Shown here in pieces: positions 6,131 through 40,983 of a stretch of 48,873 bases of DNA. The stretch's first letter is position 1; each line of letters begins with the position of its first letter. The notes below the pieces were generated by a model, which worked only from the letters and a program-made list of their open reading frames with translations, made no database searches and was not told the DNA's origin. A program made the position numbers and the translations under genes. The DNA comes from Paenibacillaceae bacterium (GTDB lineage Bacteria > Bacillota > Bacilli > Paenibacillales > NBRC-103111): NCBI GenBank assembly GCA_029256065.1, contig JAQSYT010000003.1:1-48873 (forward strand), read 5' to 3'.

Positions 6131-7834
6131 TTATCCCTTTACTTTAAATTGCTGCAGCAGCTCCTGCAGGCTGTCCGCCAGACGAGACAGGTCGGCAGAG
6201 GATGCCGACACCTCTTCCATGGAAGCCAATTGCTCTTCCGACGAAGCGGCTACCGTCTGGGTGTTCATGGAGGTGCTGCGCGCTACTTCCTCCAGACCGC
6301 CGAAGGTCTGCTCGGCCTCCTCCACCTGCTCTACGATAACATTGGTAATCCGCGTGGTTTCCCGGACCTTGGTCTCCACTTCCTTCACGGCCTGGACGAT
6401 TTCGCCGAACTTCCGGTCGGTTTCCTCAACCGCCGCCATGCCTCCATTCACCTGATTCTTCACCTGGACCATAGACCCTACGGTCCGCTCAATATCCGCA
6501 CGGATATCGCCGATGAGTACCGCAACCTTTTCCGCAGAGCTCCGGGAGCCCTCTGCCAGCTTCTTCACTTCACCCGCCACCACAGCAAAGCCTCTGCCGG
6601 ACTCTCCGGCCCGTGCCGCTTCGATTCCCGCATTTAAGGCCAAGAGATTGGTTTGCACCGCAATACCGGCAATCACCTTCACCATCTCCTCGATTTGCTC
6701 TGAGCGATGGGCCAGGCTGCGGATCGCCGTATCCGATTGGTCCACGGCTCCGTGGATTTGTGTCATCTGAGCCACCGTGCGCTGAACGGCCTGCGCCCCT
6801 TCTCCTGCAAGCTGGCCTGCCACCGAGGTTTTGTCCAGCGCTTCGCGGGAATCCGCGCCGATGGTGTTCATGCCCGCGGCAATATCCTGCATAAGCTTGC
6901 CGCTTTCGTTAGTTGCACTCAGCTGGGAATCAGCCCCGGCGGAAATATCCTGGATAGACATGGCGATATGCTCCGTAGCCTTGCTGGTTTCATCGGCGCT
7001 TACGGTGAGGATTTCCGCTGTGCCGGCTACCTGTTCGGCAGTGGCAGCCGCCCCTTGAATCAGGCGTGTCAACCCGTCGCGCATCCGGTTAAAGCTGTTC
7101 ACCAGCATGCCAATCTCATCCAAGGAGCGGTCTGCTACCTCCACAGTGAAATCTCCTTGTCCGGCAGCCTCCAGGGAGGTCTTCAGCCTTCCGATCCGGC
7201 GGGACAAGCCCCAGACGAAGAAGAAGATGGCCACAACCGATACCACCAGCACCCCGGCCAGGATGATCCACACCAGCCGCATGGCTTCATTAGCGTGCTG
7301 GAGCACTGCAGCTTCGGAGGTTCCGGCGAATAGAATGCCGATGGTTTCCCCGCCTGCGTTTTTTAGCGGCAGGTAGGAGGTCTGGTATTCCTCCCCCAGA
7401 ATAGTGGCGGTTCCCTCGTAGGCTCCGCTTTGCTTCAATACCACCTCTTCCACAGCAGGATCAACAGTGGTTCCCGCAGCCCGGCTGCCGTCCTCCTTCA
7501 GAACAGTGGTTGCCACCCGGGTATTGCCTTGGAAAAGGGTTATCATATTCCCTGTTGCCGTTTTGATTTCATCAAGAATTTCATTATTGCCACTCATGTT
7601 CTGGGCGCCTTTGTAAAAGCCGTCGGCCTTGACGGACCACTCACCGGGATACCGGGTATCCATATATTTTAAAGCAAGAGCATTGGTGCCGATTGCATTC
7701 TGCGATACCTCATCACGGATGCCGTCCTTGAGCATCATCAGGAACATTTGAGACATAGTGACCGCCATCATAAGCAGCAGCAGCAAAAACATCAGAAAAA
7801 TCTTAGGTCCCAACTTCATTTTACGAAGTAACAT
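6131..7834 (-). CDS. Methyl-accepting chemotaxis protein
   Basis: 567 residues. The ATG at 7834 is chosen because GGAAAGGA lies about nine bases upstream; an in-frame ATG at 7855 lacks a site. Order: N-terminal membrane helix ([20 protein letters not shown]), an extracellular Cache-like sensor (to about residue 180), a second helix ([20 protein letters not shown]), a HAMP domain, and a long coiled-coil signalling domain. The conserved hairpin tip [20 protein letters not shown] lies around residue 400. It signals to CheA/CheW; the ligand is unknown. No other chemotaxis gene is nearby. The gene carries the sigma-H/0A-box-like motif described at 7894-7922. Confidence 0.95.
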
Positions 7835-7893: not shown

Positions 7894-7922
7894 TCATTCG
7901 ACATTCTTCTTCACAACCCTTT
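7894..7922 (-). promoter_or_regulatory. Sigma-H-like promoter with Spo0A box, chemoreceptor gene
   Basis: On minus: AAAGGGTTG (7914-7922), an 11-nt spacer, then GTCGAATGA (7894-7902). This fits the Bacillus sigma-H pattern RNAGGAWWW-N11/12-RNNGAATWW with one mismatch in each element. TGTCGAA (7898-7904) matches the consensus Spo0A box. The -10 element lies 59 bases from the chosen ATG. The same motif with identical spacing lies before the diguanylate cyclase at 21607. Confidence 0.5.
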
Positions 7923-8075
7923 ATACCAATTGAAGCCATCAATAATTTAAATTACATTTGAATTCTTTTTACGTTAGGCTTGATCCATAATAACCACCCT
8001 GTCACCAGCCCACGAAGCCGGCATATGCTGTCAACAGCCAGACATGAAGGCTTGAGGAAGAACAGGAGGATGCTT

Positions 8076-20506: not shown

Positions 20507-21607
20507 TCAGGCCTCCGACGACGTCAGATGGTCGCAGATCCGGTTGCGGCCCTTGCGCTTGGCCTGATACAGATAAGCGTCCGCATGCTCCAGAAGGCGC
20601 TCCCCCTCCATCCCCTTGCCATAGGGATGGAGTCCGATGCTTATGGTCACCATCCGGTTCTCCAGCTCCGGATGGTCCAGAAGCTCCACATTTCCCCGGA
20701 TCCGCTCCAGTACCTGGCGGACCTCCTCCAGCGTCCGGTCCGTGAATACGATGGTAAACTCCTCGCCGCCGTAACGGGCGGCAAAATCGCTGCTGCCCAC
20801 TCCCTCCCTGATAACGGAAGCAATTCGCTTGAGCACCTGATCCCCGGCCTGATGCCCGAAGGTATCATTCACCGACTTGAAGAAATCCACATCCAGCATG
20901 GCCACATGAAGAGAGAACCCTTCTGAATCCGTATACCGCAGGAGCATCTCCAGATGCTCGTTTAACGCCGCCCGGTTGTACAAGCCGGTCAGGGGATCGG
21001 TTCTCACCATCTTATCCTTAATCACATTCTGGATCATCAGATTCTGCTTATCCACCGATTCAATCCGCAGCTCCTGCAGGAGCTCCATGCCCCTTTCCAT
21101 GGAATTCATAGCCACAAAGGCGGAAACCCCAAGGATAACGGGGATAGCCAGCCACTCCACCAGGGATGTCCGGTCCCGCAGCACTGGAAACAAGGCTGTC
21201 ACAGCCAGGAATGCGACAAAATTCATAAGCGCTGTATAGACCACAAAACGGCGCTGGAAATACATAATAGAAACCACAATCGGTAAAATCCACAAGGCCT
21301 GGATATAGTCCAGGCTGTGATGCGCCACGATCAGTACGGAGCAGATCAGAGTGGTCATGCCGACTACAACCCAGTGGTATGCGCTTTTCAGCCGCAGGTA
21401 AAGAAGCTCGCCCACACAGAGAATGGCGAAGTTGATGCCGCCGGGAATAATCATATAGCTCAATTGGGCCTCCCAGCTTCCTCCTCTGCCAACCAGAAGC
21501 ATAATCTCCTCCGCCAACAGAACCAGGAGCAATACCCACCAGAAAGAATTGAGAGACTTCCGATTCCACCGACGGTTATTCAAGCCGAGAAAATCATCCT
21601 GTTTCAT
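20507..21607 (-). CDS. Membrane diguanylate cyclase (GGDEF)
   Basis: 366 residues. The ATG at 21607 has GGGAG upstream; an ATG at 21667 would leave almost no leader after the promoter at 21680-21708. Six membrane helices occupy residues 15-175 (for example FWWVLLLVLLAEEIMLLVG). The GGDEF domain has DPLTGLYNRAALNEHL, DVDFFKSVNDTFGHQAGDQ and an intact RYGGEEF active site, so it should make c-di-GMP. The inhibitory I-site RxxD is replaced by GSSD, so product inhibition is probably absent. The input signal is unknown. Confidence 0.92.
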   Translation of the reverse strand: MKQDDFLGLNNRRWNRKSLNSFWWVLLLVLLAEEIMLLVGRGGSWEAQLSYMIIPGGINFAILCVGELLYLRLKSAYHWVVVGMTTLICSVLIVAHHSLDYIQALWILPIVVSIMYFQRRFVVYTALMNFVAFLAVTALFPVLRDRTSLVEWLAIPVILGVSAFVAMNSMERGMELLQELRIESVDKQNLMIQNVIKDKMVRTDPLTGLYNRAALNEHLEMLLRYTDSEGFSLHVAMLDVDFFKSVNDTFGHQAGDQVLKRIASVIREGVGSSDFAARYGGEEFTIVFTDRTLEEVRQVLERIRGNVELLDHPELENRMVTISIGLHPYGKGMEGERLLEHADAYLYQAKRKGRNRICDHLTSSEA

Positions 21608-21679: not shown

Positions 21680-21708
21680 TAATTCGACATTCTTTTAGCA
21701 ATCCCTTT
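21680..21708 (-). promoter_or_regulatory. Sigma-H-like promoter with Spo0A box, diguanylate cyclase gene
   Basis: On minus: AAAGGGATT (21700-21708), an 11-nt spacer, then GTCGAATTA (21680-21688). The -10 part is a perfect RNNGAATWW and the -35 part has one mismatch to RNAGGAWWW. TGTCGAA (21684-21690) is a consensus 0A box. Compared with 7894-7922, ATAAAGGG and AGAATGTCGAAT are identical and separated by 9 nt in both. Confidence 0.5.
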
Positions 21709-21899
21709 ATTATGCAAAAAATATAGAATAGGTGAATTCTTATACATTTTATCCCGTTTTTATCCAGACCAACCCTTACCGCAGGCCTTTCCCGCCAGTC
21801 CTCCAGTATTTCCCCTCCGGCTTATTCACCCCTCCCTCCTCTGGGGAATATGGTGGTGGCATAGGCTTTTATCCCATATGCTGCGGAGGTTATTTACGT

Positions 21900-27508: not shown

Positions 27509-28063
27509 TTAATCCCAAGGCTCTGTCAACGATACGCCGATAGCCTCAATGAAATATACAGCCTGCTTCAGCTGCTGGTCCCGGTTGGGGATAACGAGAT
27601 CACAGCCGAACAGGAGCCGGACTTCTTCATCGTATCCGGCCAGACGCCGCTCCTGCTCCTCCTGGGGCAGACCGCGCTCCGCCAGACGCCGGGCGCATTG
27701 CTCCTTTTCCGCGTAGACACCCACCAGCAGCACCTGGTCCCGGAAGCGCTCCTTCACCTTTAAGGCGCCGGAGGCGTCCAGCACCACGGAGTGGGGGCTC
27801 ACATCCTGAATGGCCGCCGACACTGACGCCATAGAGGTGCCGTACATATTCCCCTGGTACTCCGTAATTTCCAGCAGCTCGCCTGAAGCGTACATGTCCC
27901 TTAGTTGTCCGGCGCTGCCGAAGTAATATTCTCTTCCGTGTAATTCCCCTTCCCGGGGAGTCCGGGAAGTCCAGGTAACGATCCGGGGCAGGCCGAGCTT
28001 AGCCTGGAGCGTGCTTTTGCCCGCTGCGCTGGGACCCTGCAGAACAACTAGCCGATGCGACAT
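27509..28063 (-). CDS. Guanylate kinase-like P-loop protein
   Basis: 184 residues. The ATG at 28063 has GAGGCGG (28068-28074) upstream; an ATG at 28081 lacks a site. The P-loop is LQGPSAAGKSTLQ. The guanylate-kinase phosphate region TWTSRTPREGELHGREYYF and YGTSMASV follow, so the GMP-binding core is largely kept. It differs from the usual housekeeping Gmk (which has GPSGAGKGT and is longer at both ends), so it may be a paralogue with a changed substrate. A minus-strand TATAAT lies at 28096-28101, back to back with the promoter of the next gene. Confidence 0.78.
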   Translation of the reverse strand: MSHRLVVLQGPSAAGKSTLQAKLGLPRIVTWTSRTPREGELHGREYYFGSAGQLRDMYASGELLEITEYQGNMYGTSMASVSAAIQDVSPHSVVLDASGALKVKERFRDQVLLVGVYAEKEQCARRLAERGLPQEEQERRLAGYDEEVRLLFGCDLVIPNRDQQLKQAVYFIEAIGVSLTEPWD

Positions 28064-28076
28064 GATACCGCCTCTT

Positions 28077-28105
28077 TTCACATTCGTATCCCTTTATTAT
28101 ACAAT
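28077..28105 (+). promoter_or_regulatory. Sigma-A promoter of the second GGDEF gene
   Basis: TTCACA (28077-28082), a 17-bp spacer, then TACAAT (28100-28105). It overlaps the minus-strand -10 of the guanylate-kinase-like gene, so the two promoters face away from each other and may interfere. Confidence 0.65.
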
Positions 28106-28153
28106 AAAATCGGTGATCTGATTATTTTCATTTTTGTTGGGAGGGAAGCGGGC

Positions 28154-29734
28154 TTGAATTCTGAGACTTTTATTTATATCACCCTCATTACCACCTCCGG
28201 GGCCCTGAACGTGCTCCTCTTTCTATACGCCTTGGCTGACAAGACCCGCTCACAAACGATGAAGGCTTTTGCCGGAGTTACTGCAACGGCAGCCCTTTAC
28301 TGCTTCGGCACCGCTCTGCAGCTGGCCAGCAGCACCCTTGGTGCGATTAAGCTCTGGATCAGCGTGGCGTATCTGGGCATGGCATTTTCGCCGCCGTTCC
28401 TGCTAATTCTGGTTTACCGCTATACCGGAGCGGATAAATGGCTTTCCCGCAGAGTGGCGGGACTTCTTTTCGTCATCCCTGCCATAACCTGTCTGCTGGT
28501 GGCAACCAATGATCTGCATCATTTGTTCTACAAGTCCGTATTCCTGAGGCCGGATGCACCATCTCCAATGGCGGACATCATCATCGGTCCCTGGTATATT
28601 GTCCACGGCGCCTATACCTTCGGCAGCATGTTCCTGGGAGCCTGCCTGCTGGTCGGTCAATGGCGGACAGCCTCCACCGTATACCGCAAGCAGGTTTTCA
28701 CCTTGTTCCTTGGAACGATGCTGCCGATAATTGCATCCTTCTTGTATCTGATGGGCCTGATCCCCTATAATATGGACCCGGTTCCCTTTATCTTAATTTT
28801 TACAACCTCCTTGTACGTCTGGGCCATCCGGACCACGGATCTGTTCCAGGTAGTGCCAATCGCCAGAGGATACGTGTTTGAAAGTATACGGGACGGCGTG
28901 CTGGTGCTGGATCTGGCAGGGCGGCTGGTAGACTATAACCCGGCGGCCCGGGGCATGATTCCGGCGCTGTCCCCTGAACGGATCGGCGAAGAGCTGGATT
29001 CTGTCTGGGCAGAGGAGCCTGGCTCGGAGAAACTGCCCCGTGAGATGGACGGACAGGGGGATTCGGAACGGACCTGGCGGACCCGCTGGAGGGGAAAAGG
29101 GGAGGAACGGTATTTTGAAATCCGCTCCCTGCCCGTACGTTCGAAAAATCACCGTCAGGTGGGACGGATGCTGATGCTGATCGATGTGACAGAGCATGTC
29201 CGTTACGAGGAGAAGCTGCTCAGGCTGGCTTCCTATGACGGGCTGACGGGGATATATAACCGGGCCCACTTTATGGAGGAAGCCCGCCGGCTGCTGGCGG
29301 AGGCGGAGGGAAGCCGCTCAGCCTTATCCTTGGTTTTATTCGATGTGGACCACTTTAAGAATATTAATGACCGGCTGGGCCACTCGGCGGGAGACCAGGC
29401 CCTGGTCCACCTGGTGGACATCTGCCGGAGTGAGCTACTGGAGGGGGAAATCCTCGGCCGGTATGGCGGCGAGGAATTCGTCCTGTGCCTGCCCGGCATC
29501 GGGCTGGCTGAAGCCGGGCGGCGCACGGAGCTTATCCGGGCGGCCATTGCCGGCTCGGCCCTGCCCACCTCTGCCGGACCGCTGCGGCTGACAGCCAGCT
29601 TCGGCGTGGTGGAGGCAGGAGGAGCAGCGGCAGGCTACGGGCTGGAGCCGCTGCTCCAGGCCGCCGACCAGGCTCTATACCAGGCCAAGGCTGCTGGCCG
29701 GAACGCCGTCCACTACAGTCAGGGAATCGGATGA
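28154..29734 (+). CDS. 7TM sensor diguanylate cyclase (GGDEF)
   Basis: 526 residues. The TTG start at 28154 is seven bases after GGGAGGGA; a longer frame from 28055 would overlap the promoter. The first 215 residues form seven hydrophobic helices of the N-terminal histidine-kinase 7TM type. A PAS-like domain follows (FESIRDGVLVLDLAGRLVDY). The C-terminal GGDEF domain has DGLTGIYNRAHFMEE, DVDHFKNINDRLGHSAGDQA and RYGGEEF, so it is probably active. The I-site RxxD is absent (LEGE). It should synthesise c-di-GMP in response to a membrane or extracellular cue. Confidence 0.92.
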   Translation: MNSETFIYITLITTSGALNVLLFLYALADKTRSQTMKAFAGVTATAALYCFGTALQLASSTLGAIKLWISVAYLGMAFSPPFLLILVYRYTGADKWLSRRVAGLLFVIPAITCLLVATNDLHHLFYKSVFLRPDAPSPMADIIIGPWYIVHGAYTFGSMFLGACLLVGQWRTASTVYRKQVFTLFLGTMLPIIASFLYLMGLIPYNMDPVPFILIFTTSLYVWAIRTTDLFQVVPIARGYVFESIRDGVLVLDLAGRLVDYNPAARGMIPALSPERIGEELDSVWAEEPGSEKLPREMDGQGDSERTWRTRWRGKGEERYFEIRSLPVRSKNHRQVGRMLMLIDVTEHVRYEEKLLRLASYDGLTGIYNRAHFMEEARRLLAEAEGSRSALSLVLFDVDHFKNINDRLGHSAGDQALVHLVDICRSELLEGEILGRYGGEEFVLCLPGIGLAEAGRRTELIRAAIAGSALPTSAGPLRLTASFGVVEAGGAAAGYGLEPLLQAADQALYQAKAAGRNAVHYSQGIG

Positions 29735-36552: not shown

Positions 36553-38451
36553 ATGCCGTTCTTGGACAAGCTGTCCCATTACCGTGAAAAGGAACATCAG
36601 CTGCATTGGGAAGGTACGTTTATGGATTACCTGGACATGGTCAAGGAACGGCCGGAAATTGCCGGACTGGCCCATGACCGCATCTACCGGATGATCGAAG
36701 CCGCCGGCGTGGAGGATAAAGGAGACGGCCGCCGGGAGTACAAGTTCTTCAGCTCCCAATTGTACGGGCTGGAGGATGATTTGCAAACCCTGGTAGAGGA
36801 ATACTTCCGCCCTGCCGCCCTGCGCCTGGATGTGCGCAAGCGGCTATTGCTGCTCATGGGCCCTGTCAGCGGAGGCAAGTCCACCCTGCTGGCCCTGCTC
36901 AAGGATGGCATGGAGAAATTCTCCCGGACAGAGGCCGGAGCCGTCTATGCCATTAAGGGCTGCCCCATGCAGGAGGAGCCCCTCCACCTGATTCCCCATG
37001 AACTGCGGGGAGAGTTTCAGACGGAATACGGCGTGAGCATTGAAGGGGACCTGTGCCCCGTCTGCCGCATGCGCCTGGACCTGGAATATGACGGCCGTGC
37101 AGAGCGGATGCCTGTCACCCGGGTGCTGTTCTCGGAGGCCAAACGGACCGGCATCGGCACCTTTGCCCCCTCAGACCCCAAGTCCCAGGATATTGCCGAC
37201 CTTACCGGTAGTATTGACTTTTCCACCATCTCCCAATACGGCTCCGAGTCCGATCCCAGGGCGTACCGCTTCGACGGCGAGCTGAACAAAGCCAACCGGG
37301 GCCTGATGGAATTCCAGGAAATGCTCAAGTGCGACGAGAAGTTTCTCTGGAACCTGCTGTCTCTAACTCAGGAGGGCAACTTCAAGGCCGGGCGTTTCGC
37401 CCTGATTTCCGCTGACGAGCTGATAATTGCCCATACCAACGAAACCGAGTACCGGTCGTTTATCGCCAATAAAAAGAACGAAGCTCTCCACTCCCGGATG
37501 ATAGTCATGCGCATTCCCTACAATCTGAAGGCCAGCCAGGAGGAACGGATCTACGACAAGCTGATCAAGCAGTCCAACATCAAGGGAGTGCATATTGCTC
37601 CCGGCGCTTTGAAGACCGCAGCGGTATTCAGCGTTCTCTCCCGGCTGAAGGAATCCAAGAAGCCCGGCATGGATCTGATGAAGAAGCTGTATCTGTACGA
37701 CGGCCAGGAGGTGGACGGCGCCAAAAGCGGCGATGCCGCCGAGCTGTACAAGGAGTTCTCCGACGAGGGTATGTCCGGGGTGGATCCCCGGTACGTCATT
37801 AACCGCATCTCCAGCGCCCTGATTAAAGGGGACAAGCCCTGCCTCAATTCTTTGGATGTGCTGAGATCCATGAAGGAGGGACTGGACCAGCATGCCTCCA
37901 TTTCCCGGGAGGAGCGGGAGCGGCTGCTGAACCTGATCACCATGGCCCGGGCAGAGTATGACCACCACGCCAAAACCGAGGTGCAGCGGGCGTTTGTCTA
38001 TTCCTTTGAGGATTCAGCCCATACCCTCATGAACAACTATCTGGACAATGTGGAGTCCTACTGCAACGGCTTTAAGCTGAAGGACCCCATCACCGAGGAG
38101 GAGCGGGACCCGGACGAAAAGCTGATGCGCTCCATCGAAGAGCAAATCGGCATTTCGGAAAATCAGAAAAAAGCCTTCCGGGAAGAGATTCTGATCAAAA
38201 TCTCCTCGTTAGCCCGGCGTGGCCAGAAATTCGAATACTCCTCCCACGAAAAGCTGAAGGAGGCCATTGAAAAGAAGCTTTTCGAGGATCTGAAGGACGT
38301 GGTGAAAATCACTACCTCAGCGAAAAATCCCGATGAGGGCCAGCTGAAGCGGATCAACGAGGTGTCCGCCCGGCTGATGGACCAGCACGGGTACTGCCCC
38401 TCCTGCGCCAATGAGCTGCTGAAGTATGTGGGCAGTCTGCTGAACCGGTAA
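36553..38451 (+). CDS. prkA: PrkA AAA+ family protein
   Basis: 632 residues, the B. subtilis PrkA length. ATG 36553 follows AAGGAGG. The AAA core has Walker A GPVSGGKST (103-111); a cysteine pair CPVCRM lies near 174; and the C-terminal PrkA domain contains VQRAFVYSFEDSAHTLMNNY. A late CPSCANELLKY closes it. PrkA was described as a serine protein kinase and later reported to have Lon-like protease activity. It affects sporulation in B. subtilis. It is the first gene of the conserved prkA-yhbH-spoVR cluster. I could not place a sigma-E or sigma-F promoter in the AT-rich 36340-36552 leader. Confidence 0.95.
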   Translation: MPFLDKLSHYREKEHQLHWEGTFMDYLDMVKERPEIAGLAHDRIYRMIEAAGVEDKGDGRREYKFFSSQLYGLEDDLQTLVEEYFRPAALRLDVRKRLLLLMGPVSGGKSTLLALLKDGMEKFSRTEAGAVYAIKGCPMQEEPLHLIPHELRGEFQTEYGVSIEGDLCPVCRMRLDLEYDGRAERMPVTRVLFSEAKRTGIGTFAPSDPKSQDIADLTGSIDFSTISQYGSESDPRAYRFDGELNKANRGLMEFQEMLKCDEKFLWNLLSLTQEGNFKAGRFALISADELIIAHTNETEYRSFIANKKNEALHSRMIVMRIPYNLKASQEERIYDKLIKQSNIKGVHIAPGALKTAAVFSVLSRLKESKKPGMDLMKKLYLYDGQEVDGAKSGDAAELYKEFSDEGMSGVDPRYVINRISSALIKGDKPCLNSLDVLRSMKEGLDQHASISREERERLLNLITMARAEYDHHAKTEVQRAFVYSFEDSAHTLMNNYLDNVESYCNGFKLKDPITEEERDPDEKLMRSIEEQIGISENQKKAFREEILIKISSLARRGQKFEYSSHEKLKEAIEKKLFEDLKDVVKITTSAKNPDEGQLKRINEVSARLMDQHGYCPSCANELLKYVGSLLNR

Positions 38452-38500
38452 ACATGCGGCGGCAAGACGCTATACAAATGATTAAGGAGGGATCAGGTCC

Positions 38501-39727
38501 ATGCAAAAGCCGCTTTTCGTGCTGTCCCGGGATGATTGGTCGCTCCACCGGAAGGGGGAAAGGGATCAGGAACGTCATGCCCGCAAGGTGAAGGAGGCCA
38601 TCCGCAAAAATTTAAAGGAGCTGGTCAGTGAGGAAGCGATTATTACCTCCCAGGGGGAGCGGATTGTGAAGGTGCCGATCCGGGAAATGGACGAACCCCG
38701 GTTCCGTTACGATTACGGGAACCAGCAGCATGTGGGCCAGGGCAACGGAGGCACCAAGGCCGGAGATGTGATCGGCCGGGCCTCCCGGAACGGCCAAGAG
38801 CCCGGCCAGGGTCAGGAGGGCCAGCCGGGGGACCAGCCCGGCGTGGACTATTACGAGGCCGAGGTGACGGTGGACGAGCTGGCGGAGCTGATCTTCGAGG
38901 ATCTGCAGCTGCCCCGGCTGCAGCGGAAGAATGAAGCGGATATGTCCATCGACGATATCCGCTTCAACGACATCCGCCGCAAGGGGATGATGGGCAACAT
39001 CGACAAACGCCGGACGCTGCTGGAGTCCCTGAAGCGCAGGAGCCTGTCCGGCGGCGGGGCTGGCGGCTACAGCGAAGGAGCGTCGGCGGCCTGGAGCGCC
39101 GATGCCGGCGGGGCCGAATTTTCCGCCGGCGGGCCAGCCGGTCTTATCAAGAACGAGGACATGCGCTTCAAAACCTGGGAGGACATCAGGAAGCCCCAGA
39201 GCAATGCGGTGGTGATTGCCATGATGGATACCTCCGGGTCCATGGGCAGCTTCGAGAAGTATATTGCCCGCAGCTTCTACTTCTGGATGGTGCGGTTCCT
39301 GCGCACCCGCTACGAGCGGGTGGAGGTATGCTTTCTCGCCCATGATACCGAGGCCAAGCAGGTGACGGAGGAGGCCTTCTTCACCAAGGGGGAAAGCGGC
39401 GGCACCCGCTGCTCCTCCGTCTATTCCCTGGCGCTGGACCTGCTGGACCGGGAGTATCCCGGCTCCGCGTACAACGCCTATGCCTTTCATTTTACCGACG
39501 GGGATAATATCGATTCGGACAATGCCCTGTCTGCGGAGCTGGTGAAGCAGCTTCTTCTGCGCACCAACCTCATGGGCTACGGCGAAATCAGACGCTATAT
39601 GCGGGTCAGCCGGCTGTGGGACAGCCTCTCCGCCATCCGGCATGAGGCGTTCACCACCTCCGTGCTGCAGGAGAAAGGCGATGTGCACCGGACGCTGAAG
39701 CAGTTTTTTGGGGAGGGAACAGCATGA
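38501..39727 (+). CDS. yhbH: YhbH/YeaH (DUF444) von Willebrand A-domain protein
   Basis: 408 residues. ATG 38501 follows AAGGAGGG. The N-terminal part (FVLSRDDWSLHRKGERDQER) and VPIREMDEPRFRYDY are DUF444 hallmarks. A Gly/Gln-rich linker spans about 80-125, and another Gly/Ala/Ser-rich stretch about 185-215. The VWA metal site DTSGSMGS is at about 243. Orthologues act with PrkA and SpoVR in sporulation (Bacillus) and stress (E. coli YeaH). It is 49 nt after prkA and overlaps spoVR by ATGA. Confidence 0.94.
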   Translation: MQKPLFVLSRDDWSLHRKGERDQERHARKVKEAIRKNLKELVSEEAIITSQGERIVKVPIREMDEPRFRYDYGNQQHVGQGNGGTKAGDVIGRASRNGQEPGQGQEGQPGDQPGVDYYEAEVTVDELAELIFEDLQLPRLQRKNEADMSIDDIRFNDIRRKGMMGNIDKRRTLLESLKRRSLSGGGAGGYSEGASAAWSADAGGAEFSAGGPAGLIKNEDMRFKTWEDIRKPQSNAVVIAMMDTSGSMGSFEKYIARSFYFWMVRFLRTRYERVEVCFLAHDTEAKQVTEEAFFTKGESGGTRCSSVYSLALDLLDREYPGSAYNAYAFHFTDGDNIDSDNALSAELVKQLLLRTNLMGYGEIRRYMRVSRLWDSLSAIRHEAFTTSVLQEKGDVHRTLKQFFGEGTA

Positions 39728-40983
39728 ACCAAACGGAGGCGGAGGCGCTGGAGCAGGCCATTGAGTCGATTACCGGCATGGCCGTGGAGGCCGGGCTGGA
39801 TTTTTTCACCATGCGCTATGAGGTTTGCCCTGCGGAGACACTGTACTCCATCGGCGCCTATGGCATGCCCACCCGGTTCACCCACTGGAGCTTCGGCAAA
39901 ACCTATCACCGGATGAAATCCGAATATGACTACGGGCTAAGCCGGATTTATGAGCTGGTGATCAACTCTGACCCCTGCTACGCCTTTCTGCTGGATCACA
40001 ATACGCTCCTGCAAAATAAGCTGATTGTGGCCCATGTGCTGGCGCACAGCGATTTTTTCAAGAACAATGCCATGTTCAGGGGAACGGACCGGCGGATGGT
40101 GGAGCGGATGGCGGTGTTTGCCCAGCGGATGCGGGCCTTCGAGCAGGAGTTCGGCAGCGATGCGGTGGAGGAGACGCTGGATGCGGGGCTGGCGATTCAT
40201 GAGCATGTGGACCCGCACACCCGCTTCGGCGCCAAGGGCGGCTTCCAGGAATCCGAGGGCGGCGCCAAGGACGTGATCGGCTTTATCGCCGGGGAGAGCC
40301 GGCATCTGGCCGACTGGCAGCGGGAGGTGCTCTATATGCTGCGGGAGGAAATGCTGTACTTCTGGCCGCAGATGGAGACGAAGATCATGAATGAGGGCTG
40401 GGCCACCTTCTGGCATCTGCGGCTGGTGCGGCAGCTGGAGCTGACAGGGGCGGAAATTATGGATTTTGCCAAAATGAACGCCGGGGTTGTCCAACCGGGA
40501 ACAAGCAGCCTGAACCCCTACTATTTGGGAGTCAAAATGCTGGAGTACATCGAGCGGCACAAGGGATTGGACGCGCTGTTCGAAATCCGGGAGACGGAGT
40601 CGGATGTATCCTTCCTCCGCAACTATCTGGACAAGACGCTGGTGGAGGAAATGGATCTGTACCTGTTCGGCAGGAAGGACGACCTCTACGTGGTCACCTC
40701 CAAGGATGTGGAGGAGGTGAAGCAGGCGCTCATCCGCCAGCGCACCAACGGCGGCTTTCCTTATGTGACCGCCATGGATGCGGACCATGGCGGCCGCGGC
40801 GAGCTGCTGCTGCTCCACCGCTACGATGGGCTGGAGCTGGACCGCAAGTATGTGGACCGGACCCTGCCCCTGGTCCACCGCCTGTGGGGCAAGCCCGTCC
40901 ACCTGGAAACCAGGGACAAGGAAAACAAGAGGCTGGTCTACAGCTTTGACGGGGAGAAGGTGCAGACCGGCTTGGCGGGGTAA
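39724..40983 (+). CDS. spoVR: SpoVR family stage V sporulation protein
   Basis: 419 residues, somewhat shorter than the B. subtilis protein (about 468). The ATG at 39724 overlaps the yhbH stop (ATGA). Family signatures include THWSFGKTYHRMKSEYDYGL, NSDPCYAFLLDHNTLLQNKL, VLAHSDFFKNN, and MNEGWATFWHLRLVRQLEL. SpoVR is needed for normal spore cortex in B. subtilis; the molecular activity is unknown. It completes the prkA-yhbH-spoVR unit. Confidence 0.95.
   Translation: MNQTEAEALEQAIESITGMAVEAGLDFFTMRYEVCPAETLYSIGAYGMPTRFTHWSFGKTYHRMKSEYDYGLSRIYELVINSDPCYAFLLDHNTLLQNKLIVAHVLAHSDFFKNNAMFRGTDRRMVERMAVFAQRMRAFEQEFGSDAVEETLDAGLAIHEHVDPHTRFGAKGGFQESEGGAKDVIGFIAGESRHLADWQREVLYMLREEMLYFWPQMETKIMNEGWATFWHLRLVRQLELTGAEIMDFAKMNAGVVQPGTSSLNPYYLGVKMLEYIERHKGLDALFEIRETESDVSFLRNYLDKTLVEEMDLYLFGRKDDLYVVTSKDVEEVKQALIRQRTNGGFPYVTAMDADHGGRGELLLLHRYDGLELDRKYVDRTLPLVHRLWGKPVHLETRDKENKRLVYSFDGEKVQTGLAG

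Follow-up and report, generated by a model that had tools for sequence, protein, structure and literature searches.

The window analyzed here, 48,873 nucleotides from a Paenibacillaceae bacterium, holds a chemoreceptor gene and a diguanylate cyclase (GGDEF) gene whose leaders look alike. This raises the question of which promoter type precedes the two genes, and whether it points to a regulon shared by other sensory genes of the family. A window motif search located ATAAAGGG-N9-AGAATGTCGAAT with 0 mismatches at 7896-7924(-) and 21682-21710(-), which confirmed the initial annotation in that two minus-strand leaders have common elements exactly 9 nt apart; the positions first given (7894-7922 and 21680-21708) were 2 bases too low. 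Further copies were found nowhere else in the window, even with up to 3 mismatches allowed, and 0 of 100 dinucleotide shuffles contained the motif. By a rough estimate, about one such common gapped pair is expected by chance in 48.9 kb over an assumed ~200 possible gapped layouts, and motif sharing between the two leaders, taken alone, is weak and not decisive evidence. The motif is raised above chance by the layout of spoVG, conservation in GGDEF orthologues, the family-wide excess and the gene classes downstream. A long-range structural cause such as a repeat or mobile element was not supported, as only the promoter elements are common to both sites. The features are as follows, with their basis in brackets.

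7914..7922, minus strand: sigma-H-type -35 element AAAGGGTTG before the chemoreceptor gene (motif and layout)
7895..7903, minus strand: sigma-H-type -10 element TGTCGAATG before the chemoreceptor gene (motif and layout)
7897-7903, minus strand: perfect 0A box TGTCGAA, 0 mismatches, in the chemoreceptor -10
6131..7834, minus strand: chemoreceptor with sCache_3_3, HAMP and MCPsignal domains (domain scan; start ATG 7834)
21700..21708, minus strand: sigma-H-type -35 element AAAGGGATT before the GGDEF gene (motif and orthologue comparison)
21681..21689, minus strand: sigma-H-type -10 element TGTCGAATT before the GGDEF gene (motif, orthologues and layout)
21683-21689, minus strand: perfect 0A box TGTCGAA, 0 mismatches, in the GGDEF-gene -10
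20507..21607, minus strand: membrane-bound diguanylate cyclase with intact GGEEF (start ATG 21607)

The likely start codons, ATG 7834 (AGGAAG ahead) and ATG 21607 (GGGAG ahead), give leaders of ~61 nt and ~74 nt from the -10 elements. The longest open frames of both genes start further upstream; for the GGDEF gene, such an alternative start would leave the mRNA almost leaderless. Among named genomes, that of Paenibacillus sp. YN15 is nearest, and the GGDEF protein is 90% identical to its counterpart there. It carries GSSD in place of the expected inhibitory RxxD site, and product inhibition may, judging from the sequence, be missing. Elsewhere in the window (36553-40983, plus strand), genes for PrkA, a DUF444 (YeaH-like) protein and SpoVR lie in a row.

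Fit to the sigma-H promoter class

The published sigma-H consensus comprises a -35 element RNAGGAWWW and a -10 element RNNGAATWW (PMC8510167). The layout common to both window sites, AAAGGR-WWN, 10 nt and TGTCGAAT, is that of sigma-H promoters. Both -35 elements match the consensus except at position 6, where G replaces A; the chemoreceptor element departs from it at position 9 as well (G for W). AAAGGG is also found in the minC sigma-H promoter of C. difficile, which indicates that G is tolerated in the -35 (PMC7438776). In the -10 region, the GGDEF element (GTCGAATTA) is perfect and the chemoreceptor element (GTCGAATGA) has one mismatch. The gap between the nine-base elements is 11 nt at both sites, within the accepted 11-12 nt and equal to that of spoVG in the family.

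For calibration against a gene outside the window, we used the classic sigma-H target spoVG. This gene is preceded, in 25 members of the order (the window's genome included), by GAAGGAWTT-N10-TGTGGAAT with TGTGGAA(T) at the -10, and element spacing is identical to that of the window sites in 22 of the 25. A sigma-H matrix was built on the published consensus (PMC8510167) and the spoVG sites, and no base was favored at the fourth -10 position. It scored the chemoreceptor site at 16.5 and the GGDEF site at 20.8; for comparison, 17 C. difficile sigma-H promoters, which are supported by a sigH-mutant transcriptome (PMC7438776), scored 12.6-22.7. Only three loci in the window reached a score of at least 14, both sites included. 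In 1.2 Mb of a same-genus relative (G001), the GGDEF promoter ranked best among 692 upstream regions; strong sites were too few in this 1.2 Mb to demonstrate spacing specificity. The consensus, spoVG and the C. difficile promoters thus support the original proposal of a sigma-H-type promoter with correctly spaced elements. By sequence, this assignment is very likely at the GGDEF gene; at the window chemoreceptor it is probable.

Conservation and family-wide occurrence

We searched 104 Paenibacillaceae genomes, namely the window's own assembly (G000; 492 contigs, 79% complete), two same-genus relatives (G001 and G002) and 101 more. In the GGDEF leader, AAAGGRATT and AATGTCGAAT were kept in three species while the spacer diverged, which looks like a promoter footprint. 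The orthologues in G001 and G002 carry a consensus-perfect -35 (AAAGGAATT). The chemoreceptor site, in contrast, is degenerate in G001 (AGAGGGTTA-N10-TGTCGAAAG, with the -10 core kept) and absent from the leader of the G002 orthologue. Conservation supports the motif at the GGDEF gene, and the case for the window chemoreceptor is weaker than first claimed. Two other chemoreceptor genes of the assembly, encoding proteins of 716 aa (G000:C232) and 656 aa (G000:C140), carry stronger sites (AAAGGAATTCGTATAGATTTGTCGAAG and GAAGGATAATGTAGAATTATGTCGAATT, respectively), both kept in G001.

Across the 104 genomes, AAAGGAWW-N11-TGTCGAAT gave 166 matches versus 5 for the reversed control. The motif thus withstood the frequency comparison by which the initial annotation might have failed, as far as near-perfect sites are concerned. 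With two mismatches allowed, no enrichment was seen in G000 (35 versus 58 for the reversed control), so that only near-perfect sites carry signal. A start codon led by a ribosome binding site lay within 150 nt of 55 of 130 sites (42%), compared to 5.9% of random positions (open frames of at least 100 aa; median leader 54 nt).

A domain scan of 98 downstream proteins showed a strong enrichment of histidine kinases, chemoreceptors and GGDEF proteins, with HisKA in 18, MCPsignal in 15, GGDEF in 12 and EAL in 2. Based on the 24 chemoreceptor and 14 GGDEF genes in G001 and an assumed 6,800 genes, ~0.35 MCP and ~0.2 GGDEF proteins would be expected by chance. The chemoreceptor matches are not independent, since 13 of the 15 form one orthologous group of ~720 aa, which excludes the window chemoreceptor and is represented in the assembly by G000:C232; the GGDEF matches fall into 5-6 orthologous groups. 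Similarly, in G001 strong sites precede 4/38 chemoreceptor and GGDEF genes versus 3/509 other upstream regions (Fisher p = 6e-4; the two gene sets were trimmed slightly differently). Enrichment before these genes, as anticipated at the outset, was hence found both family-wide and in G001, and the gene-class enrichment supports, at the level of the family, one regulon joining taxis and c-di-GMP signaling. The second diguanylate cyclase of the window (28055-29734; HisKA_7TM, PAS and GGDEF) is without a sigma-H-type site, so the site does not belong to every GGDEF gene; it makes a good negative control. At a c-di-GMP phosphodiesterase-like gene (HD_5; L030), TGTCGAAT is present with a poor -35, and this site was left out of the counts. 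Family sites also precede mbl/mreB-like, ftsE and divIVA genes, which agrees with C. difficile, where sigma-H is reported to control genes for division and shape (PMC7438776).

Several further sites were observed. A ketoacyl-ACP synthase III-like gene (G000:C289:5754-5780, L001; L111) has an AAAGGG-N13-TGTCGAAT site, which is conserved in G001, and a site lies upstream of a similar gene in G119 (L426). An AbrB/Abh-like gene of the genus g21 is preceded in ~25 species by AAAGGAATT-N10-TGTGGAAT (L446-L451, L453 and similar loci), a sigma-H-type promoter with TGTG as in spoVG. Additionally, AAAGGATTTTGGAAATAACTGT[C/A]GAAT is repeated with one and the same spacer at G061:C68, G093:C56, G060:C130, G093:C16 and G104:C76; some copies lie on short contigs, as if in a repeated or mobile element.

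The 0A box over the -10 element and alternative explanations

A consensus Spo0A box, TGTCGAA, had been described over the -10, and it is indeed perfect at both sites. The -10 element in the family is TGTNGAAT, with base counts of C 166, G 41, A 21 and T 9 at its variable position; 25 of the 41 G-type sites represent one AbrB-like site type. Because C is the preferred base of the sigma-H -10 in the family, the resemblance to a 0A box comes almost free. The C can be replaced, as T or A stands in its place at near-identical sites (L177, L461 and the recurrent AAAGGATTTTGGAAATAACTGT[C/A]GAAT sites). As a separate observation, the gene that precedes spoVG retains a TGTCGAA at its 3' end in many Paenibacillaceae (L190, L197, L200 and others), where it encodes Val-Glu near the stop; either a genuine 0A box or mere conservation of the coding sequence could account for this.

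Three C. difficile genes with sigma-H promoters, spo0A, lplA and ssuA, have TGTCGAA at the -10 (PMC7438776), and the Spo0A DNA-binding domain binds the upstream fragments of these three genes in vitro and not that of spoVG (PMC3485338). Spo0A binding at the window sites is plausible by this precedent, and Spo0A might act at their -10 boxes. The search of G000 revealed sigE, sigF and sigG, which encode sporulation sigma factors, but no spo0A and no sigH. The two absences probably reflect assembly incompleteness, with 21% of the genome absent. In another genus of the family (G008), sigH was identified by tblastn, and NCBIfam confirmed the match as TIGR02859.

One alternative is that TGTC has been kept for binding of Spo0A~P, such that sigma-H fires each promoter and Spo0A~P afterwards adjusts it or turns it off. 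Besides the perfect boxes and the excess of C at position 4 (166 vs 41, 21 and 9), a base that Spo0A contacts in its box, the GGDEF orthologues of three species keep the C whereas almost all spoVG sites have TGTG, and the selective binding of C. difficile Spo0A to lplA and ssuA (PMC3485338, PMC7438776) points the same way. However, C may just be the base that sigma-H prefers in Paenibacillaceae, the near-identical sites named above have T or A instead, and no second perfect box lies near either window site. Furthermore, at B. subtilis spo0A the 0A4 box, which lies over the -10 of its sigma-H promoter Ps, had a minimal effect (PMC12090719), and the 79% complete assembly lacks a detectable spo0A. 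On balance, we regard retention of the base for Spo0A~P as doubtful. That the resemblance arose by chance, at least at the chemoreceptor site, appears unlikely: a common gapped pair of such size is not very improbable once all layouts are considered, ~0.8% of background upstream regions reach the score of this site, and it is not kept in G002, yet its layout equals that of spoVG and its -10 core is retained in G001. For the GGDEF site, conservation in three species makes chance very unlikely.

Two other sigma factors were considered as readers of the motif. An ECF factor with overlapping specificity would fit the many such factors encoded in G000; it is nevertheless a highly improbable reader, as the layout is exactly that of spoVG and the published sigma-H promoters, and the family matches include ftsE, divIVA and mbl, consistent with known sigma-H biology. 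Flagellar sigma-D promoters are the usual class for chemoreceptors in Bacillus, as established for B. subtilis (PMC5200910), and chemoreceptor and GGDEF genes are typical motility genes. A matrix for TAAA-N15-GCCGATAT scored only 4.6 and 3.6 in the two leaders, near the background median of 3.3, which leaves sigma-D scarcely credible here.

Proposed mechanism and relation to known systems

We consider it highly probable, from sequence, that both sites are sigma-H promoters, that the sigma-H regulon of Paenibacillaceae has a sensory branch, and that the -10 element doubles as a consensus Spo0A box. Sequence, spacing, conservation and gene-class enrichment were observed directly; sigma-H dependence, start site and timing are deduced from them. 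As exponential growth ends, RNA polymerase with sigma-H would bind AAAGGR(W)3 and TGTCGAAT, and transcription would start ~7 nt downstream of the -10 element. Both genes would thereby be expressed under sigma-H from transcripts with leaders of ~50-70 nt, as members of a putative sensory branch that comprises chemoreceptor, diguanylate cyclase and histidine kinase genes. Spo0A~P could bind the consensus box at the -10 and modulate or block the promoter.

The promoter type is known, and it is the set of sensory target genes that looks new: no description of a sigma-H sensory regulon of chemoreceptors or c-di-GMP enzymes was found in the open-access papers searched. If the assignment is correct, chemoreceptors and c-di-GMP enzymes of Paenibacillaceae would belong to the transition-phase program, instead of or besides the flagellar one, and taxis and c-di-GMP would be tied to the sporulation decision. 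Such a regulon gives gene-by-gene predictions for cultured relatives, and the one-base C/G difference offers a clean test of the effect of a 0A box on a sigma-H -10.

The window sites share -35, spacing and -10 with the known sigma-H promoters in Bacillus and Clostridioides (spoVG, spo0A Ps, and C. difficile lplA, ssuA, minC and ftsZ). The genes differ, as a chemoreceptor and a diguanylate cyclase follow the window sites and neither class occurs in the published C. difficile table (PMC7438776). The sigma-D (FliA) promoters of Bacillus chemoreceptors, in turn, serve similar gene classes, whereas their TAAA-N15-GCCGATAT pattern is absent from the window leaders. As with 0A4 at Ps of B. subtilis spo0A (PMC12090719), a Spo0A box lies on a sigma-H -10; B. 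subtilis spo0A has three further boxes nearby, whereas each window leader has a single perfect predicted box.
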